From an uncultured Pseudokineococcus sp. (GTDB lineage: Bacteria; Actinomycetota; Actinomycetes; Actinomycetales; Quadrisphaeraceae), in the NCBI RefSeq assembly GCF_947495735.1, contig NZ_CANMAA010000001.1, forward strand, positions 1 to 64,000: DNA of 64,000 bases, read 5' to 3'. The translations under genes were made by a program, and so were the position numbers. Positions 28,307 to 57,911 of this stretch are shown here, one piece after another. The number at the start of each line of letters is the position of its first letter. Position 1 is the first letter of the stretch. The notes beneath the pieces were generated by a model. That model had not been told where the DNA came from and did no database searches. It saw nothing but the letters and a program-made list of their open reading frames with translations.

Positions 28307-28312
28307 TACCGT
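28307..28312 (+). promoter_or_regulatory. Candidate -10 element (TACCGT)
   Basis: TACCGT lies ~80 nt before the GTG of the flippase gene, just past the upstream terminator. No clear -35. Confidence 0.25.
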
Positions 28313-28391
28313 GACGCAGGCTCGGCCCCCGCACCGCGTCCGCGGCCTCCACCGGTCCGGCTGCGCACGTCCCGGAGCTGGAGGTCCCGCG

Positions 28392-32066: not shown

Positions 32067-32198
32067 CCCGCGGGACCGCTCGTCCGGGGCGAGTCACTCG
32101 CGCGTCCGGTGCACGCCGCCCCGGACGGGGCCGGCCACGGGGGGTCGGCGTGCCAGGATCCGCGCGGACCGTCCGCAGAGAGCGAGAGAGGGGTCGCG

Positions 32199-39048: not shown

Positions 39049-40074
39049 GTGCGCGTACTCGTCACCGGCAGCGAGGGCTACCTCGGCTGCCTGCTCGGCC
39101 CCGCGCTCGCGCAGCGCGGGCACGACGTCGTCGGTCTCGACACCGGCTTCTTCACGAACGGCTGGCTCTACAACGGCGTCGAGCGCACCACCTCGACGCT
39201 GCTCAAGGACGTCCGCGACGTCACGGTGGAGGACCTGCGCGGGTTCGACGCCGTCGTCCACATGGCCGAGCTGTCCAACGACCCGCTCGGGGACCTGCTG
39301 GGCGAGGTGACCTACGCGGTCAACCACCACGGCTCGGTGCGCCTGGCGACCCTGGCCAAGGAGGCCGGCGTCAGCCGCTTCGTGCACATGTCCTCGTGCA
39401 GCGTGTACGGCGTGGCCGACGGGGTCGTCGACGAGACGTCCCCGACGAACCCGCAGACCGCCTACGCGGTGTGCAAGGAGCTGGTGGAGAAGGACGTCTC
39501 GGCGCTGGCCGACGACACCTTCTCGCCGACCTTCCTGCGCAACGCCACGGCCTTCGGCGCCTCGCCGCGCATGCGCTTCGACATCGTCCTCAACAACCTC
39601 TCCGGGCTGGCGTGGACGACGGGCGAGATCGCGATGACGAGCGACGGCAGCCCGTGGCGCCCGCTCGTGCACGCCCTCGACATCGGCAAGGCCATCCGCT
39701 GCGTGCTCGAGGCGCCCCGCGAGGCCGTCCACGCCGAGGTGTTCAACGTCGGCAGCGACGAGCAGAACTACCGCGTGCGCGACATCGCGGAGAAGGTCGC
39801 CGCCGCCTTCCCCGGCTGCACCACGAGCTTCGGCGAGCCCGGGGCCGACAACCGCAGCTACCGGGTGAGCTTCGCCAAGATCCACTCCCAGCTCCCCGGC
39901 TTCTCCTGCGACTGGGACGCCGACAGCGGCGCCCGCCAGCTGCAGGAGGTGTTCTCCCGCACCGCGATGGACGCCTCCACCTTCACCGGCCGCGGGCACA
40001 CCCGCCTCAAGCAGCTCGAGCACCTGCTGACGACCGAGCAGCTCGACCCCGAGCTCTTCTGGAGGACCCGATGA
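39049..40074 (+). CDS. NAD-dependent epimerase/dehydratase (extended SDR)
   Basis: A 341-residue short-chain dehydrogenase of the nucleotide-sugar type. VRVLVTGSEGYLGCLLG is the NAD-binding glycine motif, VHMSSCSVYGVAD the catalytic Ser region and TAYAVCKELVEK the catalytic Tyr-x3-Lys. RPLVHALDIGKAI is the substrate-binding helix. GTG start with CAGGAGC upstream, 61 nt after the cytidylyltransferase gene. It may be a dehydratase, epimerase or reductase on a CDP- or dTDP-sugar; there is no separate 4,6-dehydratase in the operon, so it could fill that step. Confidence 0.86.
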   Translation: MRVLVTGSEGYLGCLLGPALAQRGHDVVGLDTGFFTNGWLYNGVERTTSTLLKDVRDVTVEDLRGFDAVVHMAELSNDPLGDLLGEVTYAVNHHGSVRLATLAKEAGVSRFVHMSSCSVYGVADGVVDETSPTNPQTAYAVCKELVEKDVSALADDTFSPTFLRNATAFGASPRMRFDIVLNNLSGLAWTTGEIAMTSDGSPWRPLVHALDIGKAIRCVLEAPREAVHAEVFNVGSDEQNYRVRDIAEKVAAAFPGCTTSFGEPGADNRSYRVSFAKIHSQLPGFSCDWDADSGARQLQEVFSRTAMDASTFTGRGHTRLKQLEHLLTTEQLDPELFWRTR

Positions 40075-40607
40075 GGCTGACCCGCACCGCCCTCGACGGG
40101 CCGGTGGTCGTCGAGCTGGAGCACCGCGCCGACGACCGCGGCTTCTTCGCCCGCAGCTTCGACCGCGCCACCTTCGCCGAGGCCGGCCTGGAGGCGGTCG
40201 TCGAGCAGGCCAACGTCTCGTTCAACCACCGCGCGGGCACGCTGCGGGGCATGCACTACCAGCTGCCCCCGGCCACCGAGGCCAAGCTGGTGCGCTGCAC
40301 CGCCGGCGCGATCCTCGACGTCGTCGTGGACGTGCGCCCGGGCTCCCCGACGCGCCTGCAGCACGTCGCGGTCGAGCTCACGGCGGATAACCGCCGCGCG
40401 CTCTACGTGCCGCCGATGTTCGCCCACGGCTACCTCACGCTCACCGACGGCGCGGAGGTCGTCTACCAGGTGAGCGAGGCCTACACCCCGGGCGTCGAGC
40501 GGGGCCTGCGCCACGACGACCCCGTGCTGGGCATCGACTGGCCGCTTCCGGTCGCCGTCATCAGCGACAAGGACGCCGCCTGGCCCCTCCTGGAGGCCGG
40601 CGCGTGA
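40071..40607 (+). CDS. dTDP-4-dehydrorhamnose 3,5-epimerase-like cupin (RmlC/RfbC family)
   Basis: A 178-residue cupin. DDRGFFARSFD and NVSFNHRAGTLRGMHYQL (His and Lys/Tyr acid-base residues of RmlC), then AILDVVVDVRPGSPT and YVPPMFAHGYLTLTDGAEVVYQVSEAYTPGVERGLRHDDP. Epimerises or isomerises a 4-keto sugar. ATGA overlap with the SDR gene; GGAGG ~5 nt upstream. Of the usual length. Confidence 0.9.
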   Translation: MRLTRTALDGPVVVELEHRADDRGFFARSFDRATFAEAGLEAVVEQANVSFNHRAGTLRGMHYQLPPATEAKLVRCTAGAILDVVVDVRPGSPTRLQHVAVELTADNRRALYVPPMFAHGYLTLTDGAEVVYQVSEAYTPGVERGLRHDDPVLGIDWPLPVAVISDKDAAWPLLEAGA

Positions 40608-41911
40608 TCCTCGTCGACACGGCGCTGGCGCGGCGCGAGGCCGAGGGTCGCCCGGTCCGCGTGGCGATGGTCGGCGCCGGGTTCATGGGGCGCGGCGTCG
40701 CCAACCAGATCATCGGCAGCACGCCGGGCATGCGCCTCGTCGGCGTCTCCAACCGCCACCTCGACGGCGCCGTGCGCGCCTACCGCGAGGCGGGCGTGGA
40801 GGACGTCGACGTCGTGCACGACGCCGCGTCGGCGTCCGCGTCGATCGCCGCGGGCCGGCCCGTCGTCACCGAGGACGCGCTCGCGCTGGTGACGGCCGAC
40901 GGCGTCGACGTCGTCTGCGACGTCACCGGCGCGGTCGAGTTCGGCGCCGAGGTGACGCTGGCGGCCTTCGCGGCCGGCAAGCACGTCGTCACCATGAACG
41001 CCGAGCTTGACGGCACGGTGGGGCCGCTGCTGTCGGTCCTGGCCGAGCGCGCGGGGGTCGTGTTCTCCGGCGTGGACGGCGACCAGCCCGGCGTGGAGGT
41101 CAACCTCCACCGCTTCGTCACCGGCCGCGGGCTCACCCCGCTCGTCCTGGGCAACATCAAGGGACTGCAGGACACCCAGCGCACGCCCACCACGCAGGCC
41201 GGCTTCGCGGCCAAGTGGGGGCAGGACCCGGCCATGGTCACCAGCTTCGCCGACGGGACGAAGGTCTCCTTCGAGCAGGCGATCGTGGCCAACGCCACGG
41301 GCATGACCGTGGAGCGCCGGGGCATGGGCGGTCGCGACCACCGGGGCCACGTCGACGAGCTGACCGGCGCCTACGACGTCGAGCAGCTGCGCGCGCTCGG
41401 CGGCGTCGTGGACTACGTGGTCGGTGCCCAGCCGGGCCCGGGCGTCTTCTGCCTGGCGACCGTGGAGGACCCCAAGCAGCGCCACTACCTCGACCTCTAC
41501 AAGCTGGGGCCGGGGCCGCTGTACAGCTTCTACACGCCCTACCACCTGTGCCACTTCGAGGTGCCGGCGTCGCTGGCCCGCGCGGTGCTGTTCGACGACG
41601 CCGTCATCCGGGCCTCCGGTGCCCCCCGCGTCGAGGTGGTCGCCACGGCCAAGCGCGACCTGGCGCCCGGCGAGGTGCTCGACGGCCTCGGGGGCTACGA
41701 CACCTACGGCGAGGCGGAGACCGCGGCGGCGACGGCGGCCGATCGGCTGCTGCCGATGGGCGTCGCCGAGGGCTGCCGCGTCCTGCGCCCGGTGCGCCAG
41801 GGCGCCACGCTCACCGAGGACGACGTCGAGCTGCCCGCGGGGCGGCTGGTGGACGACCTGCGCCGCCAGCAGGCGGAGCTCTTCGCCGGGGACGCCGCTC
41901 CGCTCGGCTGA
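40604..41911 (+). CDS. SAF-domain NAD(P)-dependent oxidoreductase (COG4091-like)
   Basis: A 435-residue protein. RVAMVGAGFMGRGVANQII is the Rossmann NAD(P) motif; DVVCDVTGAVEFGAEVTLAAFAAGKHVVTMNAELDGTVGP resembles homoserine-dehydrogenase-type folds (cited as CDVTGAVEFG and VVTMNAEL). A C-terminal SAF domain (LAPGEVLDGLGGYDTYGEAE, VRQGATLTEDDVELP) follows at ~350-425. Members are annotated as predicted homoserine dehydrogenase-like; some sit in sugar operons. It is the last gene of the operon, GTGA-coupled to the epimerase. The reaction is unknown: oxidation or reduction of a modified sugar or its carboxylate is plausible. Confidence 0.85.
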   Translation: MILVDTALARREAEGRPVRVAMVGAGFMGRGVANQIIGSTPGMRLVGVSNRHLDGAVRAYREAGVEDVDVVHDAASASASIAAGRPVVTEDALALVTADGVDVVCDVTGAVEFGAEVTLAAFAAGKHVVTMNAELDGTVGPLLSVLAERAGVVFSGVDGDQPGVEVNLHRFVTGRGLTPLVLGNIKGLQDTQRTPTTQAGFAAKWGQDPAMVTSFADGTKVSFEQAIVANATGMTVERRGMGGRDHRGHVDELTGAYDVEQLRALGGVVDYVVGAQPGPGVFCLATVEDPKQRHYLDLYKLGPGPLYSFYTPYHLCHFEVPASLARAVLFDDAVIRASGAPRVEVVATAKRDLAPGEVLDGLGGYDTYGEAETAAATAADRLLPMGVAEGCRVLRPVRQGATLTEDDVELPAGRLVDDLRRQQAELFAGDAAPLG

Positions 41912-41927: not shown

Positions 41928-41970
41928 GCGCGCCGCCGACCGGCCCGTCACGGGCCGGTCGGCGGCGCGC
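41928..41970. terminator. 20-bp perfect hairpin, convergent terminator
   Basis: GCGCGCCGCCGACCGGCCCG and its exact complement enclose a TCA triloop. The loop is the reverse of the stop codon (TGA) of the phosphopantetheinyl transferase gene, so the 5' arm of its message holds the last codons. It sits 16 nt past the SAF oxidoreductase stop and so separates the sugar operon from the peptide operon. Confidence 0.85.
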
Positions 41971-42682
41971 TCTCGTGCTCCAGGGCCAGCGCGGCCACGT
42001 GCCCGGGCACGGCCAGGCCCCACGTGCGCAGGCCCACGGGCGCCGGCTCCTCGCCCCGCACCGGGGCGCCCGCGCCCTCGGGGTCGACGACGAAGCTCGC
42101 CAGGTCCCGGGCGAGCCCCTCGCCGGTCGCCTTCACGACGGCCTCCTTGCGCACCCACACCGCCAGGAAGCGCCCGGGCAGGTGGTCGCCGCCGGCGAGG
42201 ACCCAGTCCCGCTCGGCGGGCGGCAGCAGCGCGAGCGCCACGTCTCGGGCGTCGGGCGGGCCGGGGAGGCGCTCCAGGTCGACCCCGACGGGCCGCTCGG
42301 CCAGGGCCAGCAGGCCCTCCTCGCCGCTCGAGGCGGCGGAGGTGAAGAGCACCCGCCCGTCCGGGGCGGCCACCCGGCGCGGTCCCGCCCCCGGCAGCGG
42401 TCTCACCTCGGCGGGGTCCCCGCCGCACGCGGCGGCGACCGCGGCGCGCAGCAGCACCCTGCGCGCGACGAGCCGCCGTGCGGCGTCACCGGGCAGGTCC
42501 GCGAGGCGGCGGCGGTCGTCGGCGTCCAGCAGCGCGCCCGCGGCGTCCCCGGGCGCCGGGGCCAGGCGGGTGCGCCAGACCGCGGCGCCCCCCGCCCCCG
42601 GCAGCCGGACCAGCCGCTCGTCACCCGAGGGCGCCGGGGCAGGACCGGACGGGGCGCCCCCGCCCGGCCCTGGCGCGGTCAC
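41948..42682 (-). CDS. 4'-phosphopantetheinyl transferase (Sfp superfamily)
   Basis: A 244-residue transferase that moves phosphopantetheine from CoA to the Ser of carrier domains. VGVDLERL (~133, metal-binding Asp) and FLAVWVRKEAVVKATGEGL (~170-190, W-x3-KEA-x2-K) are the two signature blocks. It is the last gene of the NRPS operon, coupled by GTGA to the second synthetase (GTG at 42682, one codon inside a longer GTG start), so it should arm the three carrier domains encoded next to it. Its stop codon is the loop of the 41928-41970 hairpin. Confidence 0.9.
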   Translation of the reverse strand: MTAPGPGGGAPSGPAPAPSGDERLVRLPGAGGAAVWRTRLAPAPGDAAGALLDADDRRRLADLPGDAARRLVARRVLLRAAVAAACGGDPAEVRPLPGAGPRRVAAPDGRVLFTSAASSGEEGLLALAERPVGVDLERLPGPPDARDVALALLPPAERDWVLAGGDHLPGRFLAVWVRKEAVVKATGEGLARDLASFVVDPEGAGAPVRGEEPAPVGLRTWGLAVPGHVAALALEHESAPPTGP

Positions 42683-45600
42683 CACCTGGCGACCACCCCG
42701 GCCACCACCCGGGCGGTCTCGTCCACCAGCGGCGCCAGCAGCATCGCGTGGTGGTCGCCGGCGAGGGGCACCACCTCCAGGTCACGGCAGCGGGACGCCC
42801 ACCCGAGGTCGTCCCCGCGCACGTCGCGGGCCTCCTCGGACGTGAGCACGACGACCGGGAAGTCCACGGACCGGACCCGCGTCCGCAGCACCGCCTGCCC
42901 GTCCTGGTGGTTGCGCACCCGGGAGCGCGTGCTCCCCGCGTCCGGGAGGTCGGCGCCCGGGGCCGGCCAGCTGCGCTCCTCCCGCCGCATCCGGGCCCGC
43001 CGCACGACGCCGCGCGCCACGTCCTCGGCCCGCGCGAGCGGCGTGTCCCAGGAGCTGGGCGCGATGGTGTCCAGGAGCACGGCGGCCCCGCGACGGTCCC
43101 CGAGCGCGCGCGCCACCTCGAGGGCCACGACGCCGGAGGCCGAGTGCCCGAGCACGTGCACCGGTCCCTCGGGCAGGCGCCCGGCGATGAGCTCGGCCGC
43201 GCGGCGGCCGTCCGCCACGAGGTCGGGGATCTCGGCGCCCTCGGCGGGCAGCGAGCGCATCAGGGTCCAGAGCGAGGTGTCGGGCAGGGCCCGCGCCAGC
43301 GCGTGCTGCAGGACCAGGGCCTCGGCGCCGTCCCGGGCCACGAGGACGACGGGCGGCCCGCTCGTGCCGCGCCGGACCGGGAGGAGCCTGGCCGGCACCG
43401 GTCCCGCGGGGGCCGTCGTCGCGTCCTCGGCCCCGAGCGCGGCGATGCCCCGGGCGCTCGGGGCGCGCACGAGCTCGTGGAGGGGGACCACGAGGTCCAG
43501 CTCCGCGCGCAGGCGCCCGACGAGGCGCGCGGCGAGCAGCGAGCTGCCGCCCGCGGCGAAGAAGTCGTCGTCGGTCCCGAGCCCGTCCTCGCTGAGCACC
43601 TCCCGCAGGACCCCCAGCACCGCGAGCTCGCGGGAGGACGCGGCCGTGCCGGCCCCGTCCGCCGGGTGCGCGCTGCCGGCGGAGCCGGGCGCGGCCGCGC
43701 GCACGTGCTCGGCCGCGCGGCGCCGCAGGGCGGCGCGGTCGAGCTTGCCGCTCGCCACCCGGGGGAGGGCGTCGAGCACGGCCACCGCGTCGGGCACCCA
43801 GGCGGGCGGCAGCACCCCGGCCAGCGCCTCCCGCAGGCCGGTGGCGTCGAGCTCCCGCGGCGCCACGAGGCCGACCAGGCGCGGGCGGCCCTCGTGGACC
43901 ACCTCGACGGCGGCCTCCCGCACGCCCGGCAGGCGCCGCAGGGCGGTCTCGACCTCGCCGAGCTCGACCCGCTGGCCCCGCAGCTTGACCTGCCGGTCCC
44001 GGCGGCCGCGGTACTCCAGCTGGCCGTCGGGGCGCCAGCTGACGAGGTCGCCGGTGGCGTACCAGCGGACCTCCCGGCCCCCGGCCTCCTCGACCGAGAA
44101 CGCGGCGGCGGCCGGGTCGCCGGCGGGCACCCCCTCGTACCCGGCGGCCACGCAGGGACCGCCGATGCGGAGCTCGCCGACCGCGCCGGGCGGCAGCCGG
44201 CGGCCGGCGGCGTCCACCACCCGCACGGTCGTCCCGGGGTGGGGCCGGCCGATGGGCAGGGGGCGCCCCGACGCGGCGTCGGCGGCCGTGACCTCCGAGG
44301 CCGTGGCCGTGACGACGGTCTCGGTGGGGCCGTAGGAGTCGAGCAGCCGCGTGCCCGGCAGGAGCCGGTGGTGAGCCGCGGCGAGCGCCGGCGGCACGAC
44401 GTCGCCGCCGGCGAGCACGCGCCGCAGGGAGACCAGCGAGCCCGGCCCGGCGGCGCCCAGGAGCGCCTCCAGCACCCCGGGCACGACGAACACGTCCGTG
44501 ACGTCGTGGTCGTGCACCAGGCGGGCGAGCGCGAGGGGGTCGGCCACCTCCTCGTCGCGCGGCAGCACCAGGCAGCCGCCCGTGGCGAGCACCCAGAACA
44601 GGTACACGGAGGCGTCGAAGGCGAGCGTCGACTGCAAGAGGAAGCGCACGTCGCGGGTCGCCAGCACCTCGCGGTAGGACAGCGAGCGGGCCACCACGGC
44701 GCCGTCGGGGACGCGCACCGCTTTCGGCTCGCCCGTCGAGCCCGACGTCGGCATGAGGTAGGCCAGGTCCTGCGGGGTGCGCGCCGGCCAGGAGGGCGGT
44801 GCGGGCGCCGGCCGGTGCGGGGCGCCGGCGTCGTCGACGGCCACGGCGGTGGCGCCCGTCGCGGCCGCGAGGGCGTCGGCCCACGCGGGGGCGCCCACGA
44901 CGGCGGAGGCGCCGGCGCGGCGGGCGACCAGCGCCTGGCGCTCCGCGGGGTGCCCGACGTCGACCGGCACGAACGCCGCGCCGGCGCGCAGCACGGCCAG
45001 CAGGCTGACGAGCAGGCCCGGCACCCGGCGGCTGGGGACGGCCACGCGGTCGCCGGGGCGCACCCCCGCGCCCAGCAGCGCCGCCGCGAGGGCGTCGGCC
45101 CGCGCCACCAGCTCCTCGCCGGTGACCGCGCCGTCGTCGGTGACCAGCACGGGGAGCGCGCGCTCCATCCCCGCCAGCACGTGGGTGAGCAGGTCCTCGG
45201 CCGGCTCCGGCCCCGCCGCGCCCTCCCAGGCGGCGAGCCGCTCGCGCTCCTCCTCGTCGAGGACCTCGAGCTCGCCCAGGGGCGTCGCGGGCTCCGCCAG
45301 CGCCGCGTCGAGCAGCCGCAGCACCGTCTCCAGCAGCGCGTCGGCCGACGCGCGGTCGAGCACGGAGGGGTCGTGCTCCAGCCGCAGCCCGACCCGGTCG
45401 CCCCGCAGGCGCACCGTCCAGGACTGCTCGGCCTTGGGCGAGCCGAGCGGCAGGTCGACGTGCGCGACCGCCGGTCCACCGGTCCCCAGGGCGTCGCGCT
45501 CGTCGCCGGAGAGCAGGTTGACGTAGACGCGGGGCAGGACGGCGGCGGGGTCGGCCCCGCGGCGCCGCAGCTCCTCGACGACCTGGTCGAGCGGCGCCGG

Positions 45601-46707
45601 CACCGCGATGGCGGCGGCCACGGCGTCGCGCACCGCCCCGGCCGCCTCCAGCAGCGAGCGGTCGAGCACGTCGTCGACGACGAGCGCCGCGGTCTCCACG
45701 AGGAGGGCGACGACGTCCTCGCTGCCGGGGTCCTGCCAGCGCAGGTCCACCGGGGCGCCGAGGGCGGGGCTCCGCGGTCCGGCGAGCCCGTCGGGCCCGG
45801 AGCGGGACAGGGCCGCGGCGACCACCGCCGTCACCACGGCGAAGGGCGTGAGCCCGCGGGTGTCGGCGACGCGCGCGAGGCGGGAGGAGACCGCCCGCGG
45901 CAGCTCGCGCACGCGCACGTCCGTGCGGGCGGCGCTCGTCCGCGACGGCTCGGCGTCCTCGCCGGCGGCGCGCAGGAGCGCCTCGGCGCGCGCGACGGCG
46001 GCCTCGCGGGCGGCCGGCGAGGCGGCCGCCCCGCGCAGCGCGCGCGCCACGTCGCGGGGCGAGCGCGAGGTCGGCAGGACGGGCTCGCCGCCCGTCGTGG
46101 CCGCCTCGTAGCGCTCGCCCAGCTCGTCGAGCAGCACCGAGAGGGACGTGGCGTCGCACGCCACGTGGTGGACGACGAGCACTAGCACGTGGTCGTCCTC
46201 GGCCAGGCGGGCGAGGCCCGCGCGCCACAGCGGGCCCTCCAGCAGGTCCAGCGGCTCCTCGGCGAGGGCCGTGACCCACGCGGCGGCGGCGGCGGGCAGG
46301 CGTCGCCCGCCGGCCGCAGCGGGGGCGTCGCCGTCGAGCGCGGCCCGGCGCACGTCCGGGTCCGCGTCGTCGACCAGCACCTGCACGACGCCGTCGGCGT
46401 CGGCGCGCACCCGGCTGCGCAGCCACTCGTGGCGCTCGGGCAGCGCCCGCAGCGCCGCGAGCAGCGCGGTCTCGTCGAGGGCGCCCGCGAGGCGCAGCAC
46501 GACCGCCTCGCTGTAGGCGGTCGAGCCCGGGTCCAGCAGCTGCAGGACGGCGAGGCGCTCGGCGTTCGGCGCCAGGCGGCCCGGTGCCCGTCGCCGGGCC
46601 CGCAGCGCCTCCGCGAGCCGGGCGCGGTTCAGGGCGGCGGCGTCCTGCGCGGGGCGCTCGTCCTGCCGCGGCCGCTCGTCCTGCTCGGTCGTGCCCGACG
46701 TGGTCAT
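42679..46707 (-). CDS. NRPS, terminal module C-A-T-TE
   Basis: A 1342-residue single-module synthetase. Condensation domain ~45-470 with the active site VVHHVACD (~179; HHxxxD kept). Adenylation domain ~490-960: YLMPTSGSTGEPKAV, FDASVYLF, SYGPTETVV, YATGDLV and ASGKLDR; hand alignment to GrsA gives pocket residues near D-A-Y-F-V-A-S-V-T-K, which I do not recognise. Carrier domain ~1010-1085 (FFAAGGSSLLAAR, pantetheine Ser ~1052). Thioesterase ~1105-1342 (GHSASGVVALE Ser ~1188, GDHHAML His ~1320), releasing the product by hydrolysis or cyclisation. ATG overlaps the upstream synthetase stop by ATGA. Confidence 0.93.
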   Translation of the reverse strand: MTTSGTTEQDERPRQDERPAQDAAALNRARLAEALRARRRAPGRLAPNAERLAVLQLLDPGSTAYSEAVVLRLAGALDETALLAALRALPERHEWLRSRVRADADGVVQVLVDDADPDVRRAALDGDAPAAAGGRRLPAAAAAWVTALAEEPLDLLEGPLWRAGLARLAEDDHVLVLVVHHVACDATSLSVLLDELGERYEAATTGGEPVLPTSRSPRDVARALRGAAASPAAREAAVARAEALLRAAGEDAEPSRTSAARTDVRVRELPRAVSSRLARVADTRGLTPFAVVTAVVAAALSRSGPDGLAGPRSPALGAPVDLRWQDPGSEDVVALLVETAALVVDDVLDRSLLEAAGAVRDAVAAAIAVPAPLDQVVEELRRRGADPAAVLPRVYVNLLSGDERDALGTGGPAVAHVDLPLGSPKAEQSWTVRLRGDRVGLRLEHDPSVLDRASADALLETVLRLLDAALAEPATPLGELEVLDEEERERLAAWEGAAGPEPAEDLLTHVLAGMERALPVLVTDDGAVTGEELVARADALAAALLGAGVRPGDRVAVPSRRVPGLLVSLLAVLRAGAAFVPVDVGHPAERQALVARRAGASAVVGAPAWADALAAATGATAVAVDDAGAPHRPAPAPPSWPARTPQDLAYLMPTSGSTGEPKAVRVPDGAVVARSLSYREVLATRDVRFLLQSTLAFDASVYLFWVLATGGCLVLPRDEEVADPLALARLVHDHDVTDVFVVPGVLEALLGAAGPGSLVSLRRVLAGGDVVPPALAAAHHRLLPGTRLLDSYGPTETVVTATASEVTAADAASGRPLPIGRPHPGTTVRVVDAAGRRLPPGAVGELRIGGPCVAAGYEGVPAGDPAAAAFSVEEAGGREVRWYATGDLVSWRPDGQLEYRGRRDRQVKLRGQRVELGEVETALRRLPGVREAAVEVVHEGRPRLVGLVAPRELDATGLREALAGVLPPAWVPDAVAVLDALPRVASGKLDRAALRRRAAEHVRAAAPGSAGSAHPADGAGTAASSRELAVLGVLREVLSEDGLGTDDDFFAAGGSSLLAARLVGRLRAELDLVVPLHELVRAPSARGIAALGAEDATTAPAGPVPARLLPVRRGTSGPPVVLVARDGAEALVLQHALARALPDTSLWTLMRSLPAEGAEIPDLVADGRRAAELIAGRLPEGPVHVLGHSASGVVALEVARALGDRRGAAVLLDTIAPSSWDTPLARAEDVARGVVRRARMRREERSWPAPGADLPDAGSTRSRVRNHQDGQAVLRTRVRSVDFPVVVLTSEEARDVRGDDLGWASRCRDLEVVPLAGDHHAMLLAPLVDETARVVAGVVARW

Positions 46708-49700
46708 CGCTCCTCCACCTGCGCGAGGAGGCGCGCCACCTCGTCGTCGTCCAGCTCGTCCAGGCGGGCCAGCAGCGCCTCGACGTCCTCGACGCCGAGG
46801 TCGCCCGCCCCGTCCGGGGTGTTCGGCGCCGCCGGGACCCCGGATGGCACGGCCGGCTCGCCGTCCGTCGTCGTGCTGCCCGCGCCGTCGTCCTCCGCGG
46901 CCAGGCGGTCGAGCAGGCTCGCGACGTCACGCGCCCGGGGGGCCGCGAGCACGTCGCGCAGGTCCACGTCGAGCCCCGTCTCGGCGCGCAGCCGCACGAC
47001 CATGCGCGCGGCCAGCAGGGACTGGCCCCCGAGCGCGGCGAAGGTGCGGTCGACCCCCACGGGCCGTCCGAGCAGCTCCTCCCACACCGCGGCCACGAGG
47101 TGCTCGGTGGGCGTCGCGGGTGGAGCCCCGCCCGAGGGCGGCGCGGGGCGGGGCAGGCGGGCGCGGTCGACCTTGCCGGCCGTGGTCTCGGGGAGGTCGT
47201 CGACGACGACGAGGACGCCGGGGACGGCCCACTCGGGGAGGCGGGCGAGCAGCACGTCGCGCAGGTGCTCGACGTCGGGCTCGCGCCCCGCGACCGGCTG
47301 CACCCACCCGACGAGCGCGGGCTCTCCCTGGACGAGCTCGAGCACGCCGGCGACGCCGCGCGCCACCGAGGGCAGAGCGGTGAGGGCGGCGTCCACCTCC
47401 TCCAGCTCGACGCGGAAGCCGCGCACCTTGACCTGCGCGTCGTCGCGGCCGAGGAAGTCCAGCTCCCCGTCCTCCCGGCTGCGCACCCGGTCACCCGTCC
47501 GGTACCACCGGCGGCCGTCGCGCTCGACGAACCGCTCGGCGGTGCGCGCGGGGTCGTCGAGGTAGCCCTCGGCGAGCAGCTGCCCGCCGAGGAGCAGCTC
47601 GCCCTCGGCGCCGGGCGGCCGCCGCCGGCCCCGCGCGTCGGCCACGCGGGCCACCACGCCCAGCACGGGCCGCCCCACCGGCACGCGCACGCCCTCGCCG
47701 TCCTCGGCCCGGCACGTGTGCGCGAGCGACCAGACGGTCGACTCCGTGGGCCCGTACTCGTTGACGAGCGCGGCGCCCGGCAGCACCGCCCGGTGGGCGC
47801 GCACGAGCGAGGGCGTGCACGCCTCGCCGCCGAGCGTCACGAGCTCGAGCGAGCGCAGGTCCTCGGGCGCGGCCAGGTCCAGCAGCAGCCGGTGGTGGGA
47901 GGGGACGACGTCGAGCTGGCCGACGCCGTGGCGGCGCACGAGCTCCGCGAGCCGCGCAGGGTCCAGCCGGTCGGTGCGCTCGGCCAGCACGAGCTCACCA
48001 CCGGTCCACAGGTACCAGGCGATGATGCCGAGGGCGGCGTCGAAGGCCAGGTCGTGGGCCACCAGCGCGGTCGCCGGGCGCTGCGGGTAGGCGTGCAGCC
48101 GGGCCCGGGTGGAGGCGGCGAGCGCGGCGTGGCTCACCACCACGCCCTTGGGCTCGCCCGTGGTGCCCGAGGTGAACAGGACGTAGGCCGCCTCCTGCGG
48201 GGCGGGCGCCGCGTCGGGGGCGGCCGCGACGTCGCCGGTCTCGTCCAGCTCCTCCAGGGCGTCGCGGTCGAGCACCGCGACGGCGTCGCAGAGGGACACG
48301 AGGCGCCGCAGCCGCGCCGGCGGCTGCTCCTCCCCGACGGGGACGGCGACCGCGCCGGCCCGCCAGCAGCCGACCAGCGCGGCGACGGCGTCGGCGCACC
48401 CGTCCAGCGCGAGGACCACGCGGTCCCCGGGACGGGCGCCGCGCGCGGCCAGCAGCGCGGCGACCGCCCCGGCGCGCTCCCACAGCGCGGCGCGCGACCA
48501 GCCGGCGTCGCCGTCGCGGACCGCGACGGCGCGCGGGTCCTCCGCGAGCCGTGCCCGCACCTGATCGAGCAGCACGCCGGCGGCCGCCGGGGCGGGCTCG
48601 CGCTCGAGCTCGGCGAGCGCCCGGTCCTCCTCGGCGGTGGTGAGCGGCAGGTCGGCGGCGGGCGCCTGCGGGTCGGCGACGGCGCGGCGCAGCAGGCGCT
48701 CCCAGCGGTCGAGGAGCTGCTCGACGGTGCGCCCGGCCAGCCGGTCGAGGCGGTGCACCGCCGCGACGGCCAGCCCGCCGTCGCGGTGCTGCAGGTACAG
48801 GTCCAGCTCGGCGTAGGCCATCGCGCCCGGCCGGCTGAGCCGCTGCACGAGGCGCTCCGGGGCCGCGCCCGAGGAGATGCCGGGGGCCGCCCCCTGGGGC
48901 GCCTCGAGGAGGTTGAGGAGCACCGGGACGGCGGCGGCGCGCTCGCCCTCCGCCAGGGTGCGCAGCGGCACCTCCAGGGGCAGCCACGCGTGCTCGGCGG
49001 CGGCTGCGGCGCCCGCCGCCGTCCGGCGCACCACCTCGGCGAACGAGGGGTCGCCCGAGACGTCGACGGGCACGAGGCCGGTGCCGATGAGGCAGCCGAC
49101 CAGGCGGTCGAGCTCGGCCGCCCCGCGCCCGGAGGTCGGCGTGCCGAGCAGCACCTCGGGCTGGTCGCCGGTGCCGGCCAGCAGGGCGCCCAGGGAGGCG
49201 GCGAGCACCGTGAACGTCGTGGTGCCCGCGGCGGCGGCGAGCTCGCGCGCGCCGTCGACGAGGTCGGCGGGCAGGTGCCGCACGACGACGCCGGGGTCGA
49301 GGACCTCCGTGCGGCCGGGACCGTCGAAGGGCAGCGCCCGCTCCCCGGTGCTCGCGCCGCGCCGCAGGACGTCCGCCAGGGCGGCGCTCGCGGCCTCGCG
49401 CTCGGCCGCCGGCCGGTCGGTCTCCGGGGCGGCGACGTCCACCGGCGTCAGGGGGGACGGCGCGGGCAGCGCGGACGCGTTCCCTCCGGAGCGCACGAGC
49501 GCGTCGACCTCCTCCACGAGCAGGTCCAGGCTCCAGCCGTCCGCGACGGCGTGGTGGACGGCGAGCACGAGCGCCGGGCCGTCGGGCGTCGGGGCCACGG
49601 CGGCCGCCAGGAGGGGGGCGCGGCCGAGGTCGAAGGGGCGCGCGCCCCACCGGTCGGCCGCGGCGAGCAGCGCCGGCCGGTCCTCGGCGGGGTCGAGGTC

Positions 49701-51818
49701 CTCCACCGCGAGCTCGACCCGCGGCTCCACGACCTGCCCCAGCCCCTCGGGTCCCAGCTCGAAGCGGGTGCGCAGGGCGGGGTGGCGGTCGACGAGGGCG
49801 CGGGCCGCCGCGCGCAGGACGTCGGGGGAGGTCCCGGGCGGGGGCAGGAGCACCTCGACGAGGTTGGAGCGGCCCGCGCCGCCCGGGGCGTGCTCGAGGA
49901 ACCAGAACGACTCCTGGCGCGAGGAGGCCGGCCCGCGCTGCGCCCCCGCGCGGCGGGCGGGGGCCGCGACGGGCGCCCGGCCGCGCAGGCGCGCCGCGAG
50001 CTCGGCGGGCGTGCCGGCGCCCGCGAGGTCGCCGGGGGTGACCGGTCGACCGGTGGCGCTGCGCACCCGCGCCACCACCCGGGCGGCGGCGAGGCTCTGC
50101 CCGCCCGCCCGGTGGAAGTCGGTGCCGCGGTGCACGGGGACGCCGAGGACGTCGGCCATCGCGTCGGCGACGGCGCGCTCGAGGTCGTCGCGCGGCGCCT
50201 CGCCGGGCTCGTCCGCGCGGTCCGGCGCGGGCAGGGCGCGACGGTCGACCTTGCCGCCCGGCGTCAGGGGAAGGGCCTCGAGCACGACGACGGCGCCCGG
50301 GCGCAGGTGGGTCGGCAGGCGCTCGGCCAGGGCGGCGGCCACGGCGCCGGCCGTGAGCGCGGCGCCGGGCACGGGTGCGGCGTAGGCGACCAGCCGGGCG
50401 GCGTCCCCGGACCCGTCGACCTCGACGGCGGCCGTCGCGACCCCGGGCAGCCCGCCGAGCACGGCCTCCACCTCCTCGGGCTCCACGCGCTGCCCGCGGA
50501 CCTTGACCTGCCGGTCGCGGCGCCCGCAGAAGGCGAGCTGGCCGTCCTCGCGCCAGCGCACGAGGTCCCCGGTGCGGTAGCGCGGGACGTCCGTGCCGGG
50601 GACCAGGCCGAACGCCGGGTCCCCGGGGCGGCCCAGGTAGCCCGCGGCCACGCACGGCCCGGCGACCCACAGCTCCCCGACCTCGCCGGGCGCCACGGGG
50701 CTGCCGGCGTCGTCCAGCACGGCGACGGCCGTCGCCGGGTGCGGGCGGCCGATGGGGAGGGCTCCGCCGTCCCAGGCCGGGGGGACGACGAAGGCGGTGG
50801 CGGCCACGGTGACCTCGGTGGGGCCGTAGTCGTCCACGAGCACCGCCTGCGGCAGCGCGCGCTGCGAGGTCGCCACGAGCTCGGGCGGCACCACCTCGCC
50901 GCCGAGCACGACGGCGCGCACCGAGTCCAGGTCGCCCGGCCCGGCGAGCTCCAGCAGCGCGGCGTACCAGGAGGGGACGGGCTCCAGGTGGGTGACGGCC
51001 TCCTCGCGGACGGCGACGGCGGCCAGCGCCGGGTCGCCCGCGACGGCGTCGGGCACGAGCACCAGGCACCCGCCGCGGGCGAGGGTCGAGTACATGCCGC
51101 CGACGGCGCCGTCGAAGGACAGCGAGCTGTGCAGCAGGTAGCGGCACGGGCCGCTCGTCAGCCCGAGGTAGGCGGGCAGGCGGTGGACGACGTTCGCGTG
51201 GGTGACGACGACGCCCTTCGGCTCGCCCGTGCTGCCGGAGGTGAACAGGACGTACGCCGTCGATCCCGGGTCGACCTCTGACTGCGCCACCGCACCGGCC
51301 CCGGCGTCGTCCCCGTCCTGGCCCCCGTCGAGCTGCGCGTCGACGTCCACGAGCACCGCGTCGTCGCCGAGGACGTCGAGGAGCTGCTCGGCCGCGCGCT
51401 CGCACGCCGCGGCCGGGCCGGCGAGGGCGCGGGCTCCCGTGAGGCGGGCGACCGTCCGCACGCGAGCCGGCGGGGCCGTCGGGTCCACGGGCACGTACGC
51501 GGCGCCGACCGAGAGGAGGGCGAGCACCGTCGGCACCAGCCCGGGGGTGCGCGCCGCGACGAGGACGACCGCGTCGCCGGCGCGCACGCCGGCCCGGCCC
51601 AGCGCGGCCGCGCGGCGGCGCACGTCGGCGTCCAGCTCCCGGTAGGTCCACCGCAGCGACTCGCCGTCCTCGCGCCGCACGACGAGGGCCGGTGCGTCGG
51701 GCGTGGCCCCCAGCGCTGCTCCGAGCACGTGACGCAGGGACGAGAACGGCGGTGCGGCGACCGCACCGGTGGTCCAATGCGCGGGGAGCAGCTCGGCGAG
51801 GTCGCGGGTCGTGGTCAC
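46704..51818 (-). CDS. NRPS, loading and second module A-T-C-A-T
   Basis: A 1704-residue synthetase without an N-terminal condensation domain, so module 1 loads the first residue. Adenylation 1 (~30-500): FTSGSTGEPKGV, FDGAVGGMY (~234), DDYGPTEVTV, GGKVDRRALP; pocket by hand near D-G-G-E-V-G-D-V-A-K, with Glu at position 278, as in basic-residue (ornithine-like) pockets. Carrier 1 GGQSLAAAR (~575). Condensation ~625-1060 with VHHAVADGWS (~751). Adenylation 2 (~1075-1520): FTSGTTGEPKGV, FDAALGII (~1256), NEYGPTEST; pocket near D-A-G-D-T-G-E-V-W-K, unassigned. Carrier 2 GGQSLLAAR (~1600), then an acidic tail that may dock to the next protein. GTG with AGGAG 7 nt upstream. Confidence 0.93.
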   Translation of the reverse strand: MTTTRDLAELLPAHWTTGAVAAPPFSSLRHVLGAALGATPDAPALVVRREDGESLRWTYRELDADVRRRAAALGRAGVRAGDAVVLVAARTPGLVPTVLALLSVGAAYVPVDPTAPPARVRTVARLTGARALAGPAAACERAAEQLLDVLGDDAVLVDVDAQLDGGQDGDDAGAGAVAQSEVDPGSTAYVLFTSGSTGEPKGVVVTHANVVHRLPAYLGLTSGPCRYLLHSSLSFDGAVGGMYSTLARGGCLVLVPDAVAGDPALAAVAVREEAVTHLEPVPSWYAALLELAGPGDLDSVRAVVLGGEVVPPELVATSQRALPQAVLVDDYGPTEVTVAATAFVVPPAWDGGALPIGRPHPATAVAVLDDAGSPVAPGEVGELWVAGPCVAAGYLGRPGDPAFGLVPGTDVPRYRTGDLVRWREDGQLAFCGRRDRQVKVRGQRVEPEEVEAVLGGLPGVATAAVEVDGSGDAARLVAYAAPVPGAALTAGAVAAALAERLPTHLRPGAVVVLEALPLTPGGKVDRRALPAPDRADEPGEAPRDDLERAVADAMADVLGVPVHRGTDFHRAGGQSLAAARVVARVRSATGRPVTPGDLAGAGTPAELAARLRGRAPVAAPARRAGAQRGPASSRQESFWFLEHAPGGAGRSNLVEVLLPPPGTSPDVLRAAARALVDRHPALRTRFELGPEGLGQVVEPRVELAVEDLDPAEDRPALLAAADRWGARPFDLGRAPLLAAAVAPTPDGPALVLAVHHAVADGWSLDLLVEEVDALVRSGGNASALPAPSPLTPVDVAAPETDRPAAEREAASAALADVLRRGASTGERALPFDGPGRTEVLDPGVVVRHLPADLVDGARELAAAAGTTTFTVLAASLGALLAGTGDQPEVLLGTPTSGRGAAELDRLVGCLIGTGLVPVDVSGDPSFAEVVRRTAAGAAAAAEHAWLPLEVPLRTLAEGERAAAVPVLLNLLEAPQGAAPGISSGAAPERLVQRLSRPGAMAYAELDLYLQHRDGGLAVAAVHRLDRLAGRTVEQLLDRWERLLRRAVADPQAPAADLPLTTAEEDRALAELEREPAPAAAGVLLDQVRARLAEDPRAVAVRDGDAGWSRAALWERAGAVAALLAARGARPGDRVVLALDGCADAVAALVGCWRAGAVAVPVGEEQPPARLRRLVSLCDAVAVLDRDALEELDETGDVAAAPDAAPAPQEAAYVLFTSGTTGEPKGVVVSHAALAASTRARLHAYPQRPATALVAHDLAFDAALGIIAWYLWTGGELVLAERTDRLDPARLAELVRRHGVGQLDVVPSHHRLLLDLAAPEDLRSLELVTLGGEACTPSLVRAHRAVLPGAALVNEYGPTESTVWSLAHTCRAEDGEGVRVPVGRPVLGVVARVADARGRRRPPGAEGELLLGGQLLAEGYLDDPARTAERFVERDGRRWYRTGDRVRSREDGELDFLGRDDAQVKVRGFRVELEEVDAALTALPSVARGVAGVLELVQGEPALVGWVQPVAGREPDVEHLRDVLLARLPEWAVPGVLVVVDDLPETTAGKVDRARLPRPAPPSGGAPPATPTEHLVAAVWEELLGRPVGVDRTFAALGGQSLLAARMVVRLRAETGLDVDLRDVLAAPRARDVASLLDRLAAEDDGAGSTTTDGEPAVPSGVPAAPNTPDGAGDLGVEDVEALLARLDELDDDEVARLLAQVEER

Positions 51819-51908
51819 GGGGGGCTCCTGGGTGGTGCGGTGCGGACTCTCCCGACGGTAGGAGATCCGCGCCTCCCGCCGCTCACTCTTCGTAGGTAGA
51901 GGACTCGA
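51819..51908. promoter_or_regulatory. 90-bp bidirectional NRPS/ABC control region
   Basis: The synthetase operon (minus) and the ABC transporter (plus) start back to back with only 90 bp between them, containing the ribosome site of the former (AGGAG) and TAGGTAGAGGACTCG just before the ATG of the latter. TAGGAGAT at ~51857 could be a -10 on the plus strand. Shared control is inferred from geometry. Confidence 0.4.
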
Positions 51909-53663
51909 ATGGACGCACCGACCATCACTGCTGGTGACGAACGCCCGCCCCAGGCCCCCAGCGTGTGGACGACCGCTCGCCGGATGCACCGCCTGTTCGG
52001 CCGGCAGCGCGGTCGGTGGGTGCTGCTGTCCGTGATCGTCGCGGCGACGAGCGCAGCCGAGGCCGGCGCCGCGGCGCTCGTCTTCGCCCTGGTCAGCATG
52101 CTGTCGACCGGCGGCGTCTCGCTGCCCGTCGTGGGGCTCCTGTCCGTCGAGGGCGGTGACCTCGGCGTCTTCGCCGCCGTCGTGATCAGCGTCTTCCTGC
52201 TGCGGGCGGGGCTCGTCGTGCTGCACGACACGGTGCTCTACCGGCTCTGCTACGGCGCCGGGGCGCGCCTGGAGGAGCAGCTGCTGCTGGGCTACCTGAG
52301 CCTCCCGCCCCGGGAGGTCCGGCGCCGCGGCCACGCCGTGCTCGTCCGCAACGTCCACGACACCGTGGTCACCGTCGTCGAGGAGAGCCTCGTCCCGTCG
52401 GTCCTCGCCGTCGGCGGCGTGCTGCGCACCGTGGCCGTCGTCGCCGTGATGGCCGCCGTCTCGCCCCTGGCCACGCTGCTCGCGGGCGCCGTGTTCGCGC
52501 CCGCGCTCTGGCTCGTGGCGCGCGCGGTGCGCCGCCCGGTGCGCCGGATGGGGCAGGAGGTCGACACCGCGCTCGCGGAGAGCCTGCGGGTGGCGGGGGA
52601 GGGCCTCGCCCTGTCCGGCGAGGTGGTGGGCGCCGGCCGCGCCCAGGCCTTCAGCCAGCGCTTCGGCGCGGTGCGGCGCCGCATCGCGCGCGCCGGCGGC
52701 GGCGAGGAGGTCCTCAAGGCCGTCCCCCGGCTCGTGGCCGAGACGATGCTCGTCCTGTTCGTCGTCGCCTACGTGGCCGTCGCCACCGTGCGGGGGGACG
52801 CCGGGGAGGCGCTGTCGACGCTGGGGCTCTTCGCCTACGCGGCCCTGCGGGTGCTGCCCTCGCTGATCGGGCTCGTCGGGCTCGTGCACTCGATCGCCTA
52901 CTCCTCGCCCGCGGTCGAGATCGTGCTCGCCGACGCCCACCTGCTCCGCAGCAGCCCGCCGGTGGTGCCGGCGACGCAGCCGCCGTCGGAGGTCGTGCTC
53001 GACGACGTCGCCGTGGTCCTGCCCGAGACGGGGCGCACCGTGCTCTCCGGGGTGGACCTCGTGCTGCGGCGCGGCGACGTCGTGGCCGTCGTCGGCCCGA
53101 ACGGCGCCGGGAAGTCCACGCTCCTGGACCTGCTGGCGGGGATGCTGCTGCCCTCGGCCGGCGAGGTCCGCGCGGACGGCCGCCGCCTGGAGGACTGGGG
53201 GACCGGCTGGTCGGCGCAGGTCGCCGTCGTCCCCCAGCACGTGCACCTGCTCGACGCCGACGTCGCGGCCAACGTCGCCCTCGACCCCTCCGGCGCCTCC
53301 TCGCAGGACCCCCGGGTGGCCGAGGTGGTGGAGCAGGTCGGGCTGCGCCACGTCGTCGAGCGCCTGGGCGGGCGCGCGGTGGGGGAGGACGGCCGTGCGC
53401 TCTCCGGCGGGGAGCGCCAGAAGGTCGCCGTCGCGCGCGCCCTCGTCCGGCGGGCCGGCGTGCTGCTCGTGGACGAGGGCACCTCCGCCCTCGACGCCGC
53501 GTCGCGCGCCTCGGTGGCCGACCTCGTCGCCGCGGGGGCGCCGGATCGCCTCACCGTCGTGGTCACCCACGACCCCGCGCTCGCGGAGGTCTGCACGCGG
53601 GTCGTGCGCGTCGAGGCCGGACGGGTGGTCGAGGAGACGGCCGCCGGCGCGCGAGCCGGCTGA
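51909..53663 (+). CDS. ABC transporter (half-transporter, export type)
   Basis: A 584-residue membrane-ATPase fusion. Residues ~20-330 form the six-helix exporter domain; the ATPase (~355-580) has GPNGAGKST (Walker A), QVAVVPQHVHLL (Q-loop region), ALSGGERQKVAVARAL (signature), VLLVDEGTSALD (Walker B and catalytic Glu) and VVVTHDPAL (H-loop). It works as a homodimer. Divergent from the NRPS genes, it is the obvious exporter of the peptide; flipping of a lipid-linked saccharide (PglK-like) is a less likely alternative. ATG with TAGAGGAC upstream. Confidence 0.9.
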   Translation: MDAPTITAGDERPPQAPSVWTTARRMHRLFGRQRGRWVLLSVIVAATSAAEAGAAALVFALVSMLSTGGVSLPVVGLLSVEGGDLGVFAAVVISVFLLRAGLVVLHDTVLYRLCYGAGARLEEQLLLGYLSLPPREVRRRGHAVLVRNVHDTVVTVVEESLVPSVLAVGGVLRTVAVVAVMAAVSPLATLLAGAVFAPALWLVARAVRRPVRRMGQEVDTALAESLRVAGEGLALSGEVVGAGRAQAFSQRFGAVRRRIARAGGGEEVLKAVPRLVAETMLVLFVVAYVAVATVRGDAGEALSTLGLFAYAALRVLPSLIGLVGLVHSIAYSSPAVEIVLADAHLLRSSPPVVPATQPPSEVVLDDVAVVLPETGRTVLSGVDLVLRRGDVVAVVGPNGAGKSTLLDLLAGMLLPSAGEVRADGRRLEDWGTGWSAQVAVVPQHVHLLDADVAANVALDPSGASSQDPRVAEVVEQVGLRHVVERLGGRAVGEDGRALSGGERQKVAVARALVRRAGVLLVDEGTSALDAASRASVADLVAAGAPDRLTVVVTHDPALAEVCTRVVRVEAGRVVEETAAGARAG

Positions 53664-54882: not shown

Positions 54883-56391
54883 GTGCCACACGTCCCGGAG
54901 GGCGGCTCGACGGCGCCCGACCACGCCGTCCCGCTGCTGCGCGGCCAGCGGGCGTCCCGCCCGCTGCACGTGGCGATGGTGGGGCAGAAGGGGCTCCCCG
55001 CCACCTACGGGGGCGTCGAGCACCACGTCGAGGAGGTCGGCCGCCGGCTCGTCGAGCGCGGCCACCGGGTCACCGTCTACTGCCGCGAGGGCTACGGCGG
55101 GCTCTGCGACGACCGCACGACCCACCTCGGCATGGAGCTCGTCACCACCCCGGCCATCCGCTCGAAGCACCTGGACGCCATCACGCACAGCGCCACCTCG
55201 ACGGCGAGCGCGCTGCGGGCCGGGGTCGACGTGGTGCACCTGCACGCCCTCGGGCCCGGGCTGCTCAGCCCCCTGGTGCGCCTGTCGCGGGGCGCCCGGG
55301 TCGTGCAGACGGTGCACGGACTCGACCACGAGCGCGCCAAGTGGGGTGGCCTGGCGCAGCGCGTGCTCGGGCTGGGGCACGAGATCTCCGGACGCGTCCC
55401 CGACGAGCTCGTCGTCGTCTCCCGCGCCCTGCAGGAGCACTACGCCCGGCGCTTCGGGCGCCGCGCGGTGCTGATCCCGAACGGCGCGCCCCCCGCCGCG
55501 GACGTCGGCAGCGGCGCCCCGCCCGAGGTGCCGACCGGTGACGGGCCGGAGCGCTGCGGGGCGGTGGGGGAGCTGGTGCACGAGCTGCTCGGGCCCCAGC
55601 CGCCGCGCTACCTGCTCTTCGTGGGGCGGCTGGTGCCCGAGAAGCGCCCCGACCTGCTCCTGCGCGCCTTCCGCGCCGTGCCGGGCGACGTCCGGCTCGT
55701 CGTGGTGGGCGACTCCTCCTTCTCCGACGAGTACACCGCCTCGCTGGTGCGCCAGGCCGCGGAGGACCCCCGCGTGGTGATGACGGGCTACCAGTACGGC
55801 GACGTCCTGCAGGCGCTGCACGCCCGCGCCCTCGCCTTCGTGCAGCCGTCGGCGCTGGAGGGCATGCCCCTGACGGTGCTCGAGGCCCTCTCGGCGGGTG
55901 CTCGCGTGGTGGCCAGCGACATCGCCCCGCACGTCGAGCTCCTCGGTCGCGCGCCCTCCCGGCACGCGCTCGTGCCGGTCGACGACGAGGCGGCGCTGGC
56001 GGCCGCGATGCGACGGGTGCTCGCCCAGGAGGGCCGCGAGGGCGACGGCGGGGCGGCCACCGACCCGGTGCGCGCGCGGGTGCTGCGCGAGCACTGCTGG
56101 GAGCGGTCCACGGACCTCCTCGAGCAGGTCTACCTCGACGTCGTCGCGCGCCGGTCGGGCGCGGTCCGGCGTCCTCCCGCCGCCGGTGCGCCGAGCCCGG
56201 CCCGCCGAGACCCGCGCGCGCGGCGCCGGGGCGGCTCGCCGTCCCCGGCCCTGCGCCCCGCGGCGCCGGCCGCGCTGCCGCCCAGCGGTGGACGCCCGAC
56301 GCCCAGCCGCCCCGAGCCGTCCCGCCCGACCCCGGTGCGCGCCGCGCCCGCGCGCCCCGCCGCGGGCCGCACCCCCGCCGCGCGTCCGTGA
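54883..56391 (+). CDS. GT4 glycosyltransferase (DUF1972-type)
   Basis: A 502-residue GT-B enzyme with GTG and GGGAGG ~7 nt upstream. LHVAMVGQKGLPATYGGVEHHVEEVGRRL is the DUF1972 hallmark of O-antigen rhamnosyl and galactosyl transferases (cited as GQKGLPATYGGVEHH); VHGLDHERAKWGG; FVGRLVPEKRPDLLLRAF; FVQPSALEGMPLTVLEALSAGARVVASD forms the donor site. Residues ~425-502 are a disordered Pro/Arg/Ala tail unusual for the family. First gene of a four-gene operon with polymerase, flippase and chain-length protein; GTGA overlap with the next. Confidence 0.88.
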   Translation: MPHVPEGGSTAPDHAVPLLRGQRASRPLHVAMVGQKGLPATYGGVEHHVEEVGRRLVERGHRVTVYCREGYGGLCDDRTTHLGMELVTTPAIRSKHLDAITHSATSTASALRAGVDVVHLHALGPGLLSPLVRLSRGARVVQTVHGLDHERAKWGGLAQRVLGLGHEISGRVPDELVVVSRALQEHYARRFGRRAVLIPNGAPPAADVGSGAPPEVPTGDGPERCGAVGELVHELLGPQPPRYLLFVGRLVPEKRPDLLLRAFRAVPGDVRLVVVGDSSFSDEYTASLVRQAAEDPRVVMTGYQYGDVLQALHARALAFVQPSALEGMPLTVLEALSAGARVVASDIAPHVELLGRAPSRHALVPVDDEAALAAAMRRVLAQEGREGDGGAATDPVRARVLREHCWERSTDLLEQVYLDVVARRSGAVRRPPAAGAPSPARRDPRARRRGGSPSPALRPAAPAALPPSGGRPTPSRPEPSRPTPVRAAPARPAAGRTPAARP

Positions 56392-57911
56392 GCGCCCCCG
56401 CGAGCCCGTCGACGAGCACTCCCGGCAGCACGTCCGAGGGCGCCCCGGTGGCCGGCGCCGGGAGGTCCCGGGCGGGCTGCGCCCGCCGCGCGGCCGCCGG
56501 AGCGGCGGCGGTGGCCCTCCTGGCGGCCGCGGCGGCGGCCAGCGGCCTCGCGGTCGCCGAGGGCGACCGGGTGGGGGCCGTGCTGCCGGTGGCCGTCTGC
56601 GGCGCCGTCGTCCTGGCGGCCCTGGCGCTCACCCGCGTCTTCGCCGTGGTGCTCGTGCTTCTGGCCGCGCGCACGGGCGTGGACCTGGTCCGGCTGTCCG
56701 ACGGAGGGGGCGCGGCCCGCGCGCTCGACCCCTCCGTGCTCCTGTCGGTGCTCCTGCTCGGGATGAGCGCGGTGTGGTTCATCGCCCAGCGCCCGGGCGG
56801 GCGGCTGCGCGGCTCGCCGCTGCGCACCGCGCTGCTCGCGCTGGTCGCCGCGGCCGCGCTGAGCCTGCTCGGCGCCGAGCAGCCGGCGCGCGGCGCCGCC
56901 GAGCTGCTGCGCCTGTCCTCGGCCGTGGCCATGCTCGTCCTGCTCGAGCAGCTCGTGACCACGCGGCGCCGCCTGGTAGCCGTCCTCGGCGCCGTCGCCG
57001 CGGGCGCCGTGGTGCCGCTGCTGGTCGGCGTCGGGCAGGTCCTCGGCGTCCTCGACGGGGCGGGCAGCGGGGGGGACGGGCCCGCTGGGCTGGCCGGTCG
57101 CCTGACCGGGCCCTTCAACCACCCGACGACCTACGCCCGCTACCTCCTCGTCGCCGGCCTGACCGGGCTGGCGCTGCTGCCCGCCGTCCGCCGCCGCGCC
57201 GCACGGGCGGCCCTCGCCGGCGCCCTGGTCCTCGGGGCGGCCCTGATGCTGGCCACCCTCACCCGCGGCGCCCTGGTCGCCGGTCTCCTCGGCGCCCTGG
57301 TCCTGGTCGTGGTGCAGCGCCGCCCCGTCCTGCTGCTCGGCCTGGTGGCGGTCGCCACCGCGGGGGCCGTGGCCGTGCCGGGCCTGGTGGAGCGCTTCGC
57401 GGCGGCGCGGACCTCGAGCACCGACAGCCTGCGGTGGCGGCTGGACTACTGGACCGAGCTGCTGCCGCTGGCGCGGGAGAGGCCGCTCACCGGCATCGGC
57501 TTCGACGGCGTCCGCGGGCTCACCGAGGCGGCCAAGCTGCCCCACAACGACGTGCTGCGGATGCTCGTGGAGACGGGCGTCCTCGGCCTGCTCGCCTACC
57601 TCGCCGTCCTCCTGGCGCTCGTCGGCACCGGGCTGCGCGCCGTCCACCGGGCCCGCGCGGGGACCCTCGAGCACGCGGCGGCCAGCGCCGCGACGGCGGT
57701 CGCGGTCGCGGTCGTGGTGGCCAGCTCGGCCGCCAACCTGATCACCGGCGTGGTCGTGCTCTGGTACGTGATGGCGCTGGCGGCCTGCGCCGTCGCCGTC
57801 GGCCGCGGCCCGCTGCCGGAGGACGCCCCAGAAGACGCCCCGGAGGACGCCGCGGCGGCCGGCGACGCCCCTGGCGCGCGCCCGGTCCCGCGCGCCGTCG
57901 CCCTGCGGTGA
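56388..57911 (+). CDS. Wzy-type polymerase / O-antigen ligase family protein
   Basis: A 507-residue membrane protein with ~11 helices. GTG overlaps the preceding stop (GTGA). LTGPFNHPTTYARYLLVAGL and LTRGALVAGLL are the transmembrane-loop hallmarks; RPLTGIGFDGVRGLTEAAKLPHNDVLRMLVETGVLGLLAYL is the O-antigen ligase (Wzy_C) motif region (cited as RPLTGIGFDG and PHNDVLRMLVETG), including the conserved His. N- and C-terminal tails are disordered. Joins repeat units made by the adjacent transferases and flippase; GTGA overlap with the flippase follows. Confidence 0.9.
   Translation: MSAPASPSTSTPGSTSEGAPVAGAGRSRAGCARRAAAGAAAVALLAAAAAASGLAVAEGDRVGAVLPVAVCGAVVLAALALTRVFAVVLVLLAARTGVDLVRLSDGGGAARALDPSVLLSVLLLGMSAVWFIAQRPGGRLRGSPLRTALLALVAAAALSLLGAEQPARGAAELLRLSSAVAMLVLLEQLVTTRRRLVAVLGAVAAGAVVPLLVGVGQVLGVLDGAGSGGDGPAGLAGRLTGPFNHPTTYARYLLVAGLTGLALLPAVRRRAARAALAGALVLGAALMLATLTRGALVAGLLGALVLVVVQRRPVLLLGLVAVATAGAVAVPGLVERFAAARTSSTDSLRWRLDYWTELLPLARERPLTGIGFDGVRGLTEAAKLPHNDVLRMLVETGVLGLLAYLAVLLALVGTGLRAVHRARAGTLEHAAASAATAVAVAVVVASSAANLITGVVVLWYVMALAACAVAVGRGPLPEDAPEDAPEDAAAAGDAPGARPVPRAVALR

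Follow-up and report, generated by a model that had tools for sequence, protein, structure and literature searches.

The window, the whole 64,000-nucleotide stretch of DNA analyzed here, contains at positions 41948-53663 an NRPS cluster that is real, complete and apparently an orphan, and that belongs to a familiar type, the small actinobacterial NRPS cluster. In our judgment this four-gene cassette is probably a minimal nonribosomal tripeptide cluster that behaves as a unit, its polysaccharide neighbors being incidental.

Gene layout and integrity of the cassette

The cassette consists of a PPTase, a C-A-T-TE synthetase, an A-T-C-A-T synthetase and a divergent ABC exporter, and their catalytic motifs are intact. 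Pfam and motif checks agree with the coordinates and domain order that an earlier note on this DNA had given. The four genes are listed below, with their identity to orthologs in G072, a genome from another family of the same order.

41948..42685, minus strand: PPTase, a 4'-phosphopantetheinyl transferase of the Sfp-like superfamily (PF01648, E 4e-13; motifs GVD and WVRKEAVVK; 55% identical to the G072 ortholog, which lies in the same place)
42679..46707, minus strand: NRPS2, C2-A3-T3-TE, the terminal module (Pfam; 57% identical to the G072 ortholog)
46704..51818, minus strand: NRPS1, A1-T1-C1-A2-T2, the loading and second modules (Pfam; GTG start with AGGAG; 61-63% identical to the G072 ortholog)
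51909..53663, plus strand: divergent ABC exporter, membrane part and ATPase in a single chain (PF00005, E 1e-29, and a weak PF00664 match; 69% identical to the G072 ortholog, which has the same divergent position)

The open frame of NRPS1 (46704-53570) is overlong, and the GTG at 51818, with AGGAG just upstream, is its best start. NRPS1 and NRPS2 overlap by 4 bp, while the overlap of NRPS2 with the PPTase gene is 7 bp; starting from the second GTG would shorten the latter overlap to 4 bp (GTGA). In NRPS1, Pfam recognizes a pair of AMP-binding domains, a pair of carrier domains and a single condensation domain; NRPS2 has a condensation, an AMP-binding, a carrier and a thioesterase domain, each once. 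The matches are well beyond chance, with E values of 1e-148 (two copies) and 7e-70 for AMP-binding, 9e-34 and 2e-33 for Condensation, 2e-21 (two copies) and 1e-9 for PP-binding, 8e-7 for Thioesterase, 4e-13 for ACPS and 1e-29 for ABC_tran. By Pfam and motifs, the A, T and C domains carry their core motifs and the modules are collinear, as in a type I modular NRPS; the PPTase has the ACPS superfamily fold (PF01648) and, in its translation, the GVD and KEA...K motifs of the Sfp type. Judging from the translations, a short helical tail at the C terminus of NRPS1 (EDVEALLARLDELDDDEVARLLAQVEER) and a basic stretch at the N terminus of NRPS2 look like docking elements.

Domains of the two synthetases and predicted assembly

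The domains follow one another along the two synthetases in this order, all on the minus strand:

50214..51707, minus strand: A1 adenylation, pocket DGGEVGDVAK, Orn/Dab-like (1AMU alignment; DGGEIGDVAK in G072)
49977..50189, minus strand: T1 carrier, GGQSL (PF00550, motif)
48615..49931, minus strand: C1 condensation, HHAVADG (PF00668, motif)
47133..48575, minus strand: A2 adenylation, pocket DAGDTGEVWK, acidic, cationic substrate likely (1AMU alignment; identical in G072)
46914..47096, minus strand: T2 carrier, GGQSL (PF00550, motif)
45235..46560, minus strand: C2 condensation, HHVACDA (PF00668, motif)
43708..45195, minus strand: A3 adenylation, pocket DA(Y)FLGSVTK, aliphatic, Leu-like (1AMU alignment)
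43438..43620, minus strand: T3 carrier, GGSSL (PF00550, motif)
42688..43395, minus strand: TE release domain, triad Ser (GHSASG), Asp (LLDT) and His (GDHH) (PF00975; alignment to the 4zxh thioesterase)

The assembly line is whole in its domain content and integrity. C2 departs from the usual HHxxxDG motif in that DA replaces DG (HHVACDA here, HHIACDA in G072), and because this variant is kept in both orthologs the domain is possibly functional. The Ser, Asp and His of the thioesterase all align to the 4zxh triad, with a weak overall score, and both orthologs retain the three residues. As the earlier note had stated, neither a starter condensation domain nor an epimerization domain is seen in the two synthetases.

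From established NRPS logic, the PPTase would arm the three carrier domains and A1 would load the first residue, its amino end left free, there being no starter condensation domain. C1 would then couple this residue to the one activated by A2, and the dipeptide would be handed on to NRPS2, where C2 would add the residue activated by A3. The thioesterase would release a tripeptide, linear or cyclic, and the divergent ABC protein would export it. With a free-amino start, two condensations of the L type (an E domain is not seen) and release by the thioesterase, the line is predicted to yield a tripeptide of L-configuration; the three modules, and an ortholog with the same four genes, support the earlier collinear prediction of a tripeptide. 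Module skipping, iteration, or tailoring by enzymes encoded elsewhere in the genome may modify this scheme.

The terminal thioesterase is divergent, its matches to solved thioesterases being weak, and type I thioesterases can join units or close rings. Both points count for an iterative or cyclizing line, in which the thioesterase joins at least two tripeptides or closes a ring to give a larger or cyclic product. However, no sequence feature specifically points to iteration, and we consider this outcome unlikely, if worth keeping in mind.

Adenylation pockets and a possible, if improbable, siderophore

To return to the tripeptide cluster that we favor, its pockets were read by aligning the three A domains to the PheA structure 1AMU, with the PheA segment checked against 1AMU. 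The alignment reproduces the first two pockets that had been read by hand (DGGEVGDVAK and DAGDTGEVWK) and corrects the third, DAYFVASVTK, which contained a one-residue slip at positions 299/301, where the residues are L-G rather than V-A. One residue of A3 is missing near position 239, so that the Y at that position is uncertain. The pockets were compared with a short list of reference codes, taken partly from PMC12283262 and PMC10522769 and partly from general background. The A3 pocket, DA(Y)FLGSVTK, shares 7 of 10 letters with the commonest Leu code, DAWFLGNVVK (PMC12283262), and the earlier statement that the pockets match no familiar code therefore does not hold for A3. A1 shares Gly239, Glu278, Val299 and Gly301 with a bacitracin/gramicidin-type ornithine code, a Trp code tying with it on letters, and bacitracin-type Orn domains have an acid at position 4 (PMC10522769). 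A2, with Asp278 and Glu322, is similar to Arg codes, which typically have Asp278 and Gly301 (PMC12283262); Leu, Trp and Glu codes tie with these. Even the best pocket matches reach only 6-7 of 10 letters, a level at which unrelated substrates tie. Two acids lining a pocket, as in A1 and A2, would favor a cationic side chain. With low confidence, the likely residues are ornithine- or diaminobutyrate-like at position 1, cationic and Arg-like at position 2, and a leucine-like aliphatic at position 3. Searching the literature for the pocket strings gave no match, but a like search for papers containing two well-known codes also came up empty, so that this negative carries no information.

The resemblance of A1 to Orn-type codes would also suit a siderophore synthetase, whose basic pockets activate modified ornithine and whose product chelates iron, and several actinobacterial siderophores are made by small NRPSs. 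We nevertheless find this explanation improbable. The cassette lacks an ornithine hydroxylase, a formyl/acetyl transferase and a siderophore receptor in both genomes. More broadly, hydroxamate and catecholate tailoring genes and iron-uptake genes were not found within the four-gene unit of the window's genome or of G072, and a genome-wide search of the window's genome found no MbtH, which bears out what the earlier note had said of iron-uptake and MbtH-like genes and leaves the cassette without the features of an NRPS siderophore cluster. MbtH is frequent, not obligatory, in siderophore NRPS clusters. The whole 4.2 Mb genome has two condensation domains, both in the cassette.

Small actinobacterial tripeptide and siderophore clusters such as those for coelichelin and erythrochelin combine three adenylation modules with an exporter of their own, as the cassette does. 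The cassette differs from them in its pockets and in lacking an E domain, a hydroxylase, MbtH and any iron-uptake gene. The linear gramicidin synthetase LgrA, which has an N-terminal formylation domain, resembles the cassette in domain folds and motifs, as do other classical NRPSs; these are among the best solved-structure matches (6mfz for LgrA), whereas module order and pockets differ.

An ortholog in a second family and patchy distribution

In G072 the four genes are all present and keep their order, the GTGA overlaps and the divergent exporter. Comparison of the window with G072 finds no extra gene common to both cassettes beyond the four. The earlier note described a three-module NRPS that is self-contained, having a PPTase and an exporter of its own; this is supported, and G072 keeps exactly these genes. 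The G072 cassette (C4, L036/L037) is itself uncharacterized; at 55-69% identity it shares gene content, order and overlaps with the cassette in the window, and it differs in its setting and in its third pocket. The G072 pockets are DGGEIGDVAK, DAGDTGEVWK and DA(Y)FCGVVTK, so that A1 and A2 are kept between the orthologs with a single V/I change and A3 is less conserved.

The cassette is patchily distributed. Of 13 genomes in the window's family, a search with C2 located it in one, and among the 248 genomes of the order there was one other strong C2 match, that in G072 (55% identity over the whole domain, E 1e-117), the rest being 26-42% identical. In G072's own family the cassette is present in one of 12 genomes, and the other 11 are without it. 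Scanning genome contigs with the NRPS1 alignment, by way of generic NRPS motifs, returned at least 80 loci, those listed being 26-38% identical. Close relatives of the PPTase, TE and C2 at the cut-off were confined, among the 80 loci listed and 19 further genome loci, to the G072 locus L017; many of these loci are truncated, which makes the comparison a weak one. No plasmid record had one place covering 80% of the query, the best among the matches listed being 32-39% identical, and a DNA-pattern search of viral contigs found no close relatives. The NRPS genes have a mean G+C of 0.80, against 0.75 leftward and 0.79 rightward, and composition therefore gives no clear signal of a foreign donor. 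The cassette would be inherited, moved or lost as one unit.

Genomic setting

In the window the cassette is bordered by sugar-nucleotide genes on one side and glycosyltransferase/Wzy/Wzx genes on the other. Beside it, at 39049-41911, an epimerase (PF01370), a dTDP-sugar isomerase (rmlC-like) and a DRL-catalytic/SAF oxidoreductase form a module that is also present, at 54-76% identity, in eight further genomes from the window's family, belonging to three other genera. None of the seven relatives read has an NRPS downstream of this module; in one of them (G006), the next 4.5 kb or so contain genes for FMN-dehydrogenase and MazG. The three congeners that were searched have no close DRL gene. On one flank the G072 cassette has metG and the genes of an Rpf-like transglycosylase and of endonuclease V, on the other those of an aminotransferase, allophanate hydrolase and urea carboxylase, and none of the tested flanking genes of the window occurs in the 34 kb G072 region. 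Since the G072 cassette sits among unrelated genes and the relatives carry the sugar module without an NRPS, the four genes appear to be the unit, and the polysaccharide neighborhood looks incidental. The plain reading is that the four-gene unit happened to insert next to a sugar locus that was already there.

A link between the cassette and the exopolysaccharide, which the earlier note had left open, is not supported by these flanks. That the peptide decorates or is built into the exopolysaccharide encoded around the cluster is suggested by the cluster's place among the glycan genes and is most improbable, as the G072 ortholog has no polysaccharide neighbors, the sugar module of relatives is not accompanied by an NRPS and the cassette contains no peptide-to-glycan transferase.

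The window holds other genes of interest around the cassette. Three Wzx-like flippases (12639-14231, 28311-29684 and about 58000-59600) and two Wzy-like polymerases (32109-33719 and 56388-57911) suggest that two or three glycan clusters are packed in it. A frame at 9277-11733 matches the RXYLT1 C-terminal domain and, weakly, exostosin GT47, families better known from eukaryotes. ORFs with malectin domains lie near glycan genes (3973-5472 and 26204-28219), and an ORF at 947-2587 fuses DUF5648 to a metallophosphoesterase.

Significance

The cassette that we interpret as a tripeptide cluster apparently has no bearing on exopolysaccharide biology. Orphan NRPS clusters are many, yet this one is convenient: with four genes, no tailoring enzymes and its own PPTase and exporter, expression of the whole in a laboratory host with direct readout of the product should be feasible. 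We tentatively propose, as a possibility less likely than not, that the exported tripeptides form a family not described before, with an aliphatic residue after two cationic ones, and that they are made by a free-standing four-gene unit exchanged between or retained in only a few actinobacteria of one order. Overall, the two orthologs, with pockets 1 and 2 conserved and pocket 3 changed, offer a natural experiment, on a small scale, for testing adenylation codes.
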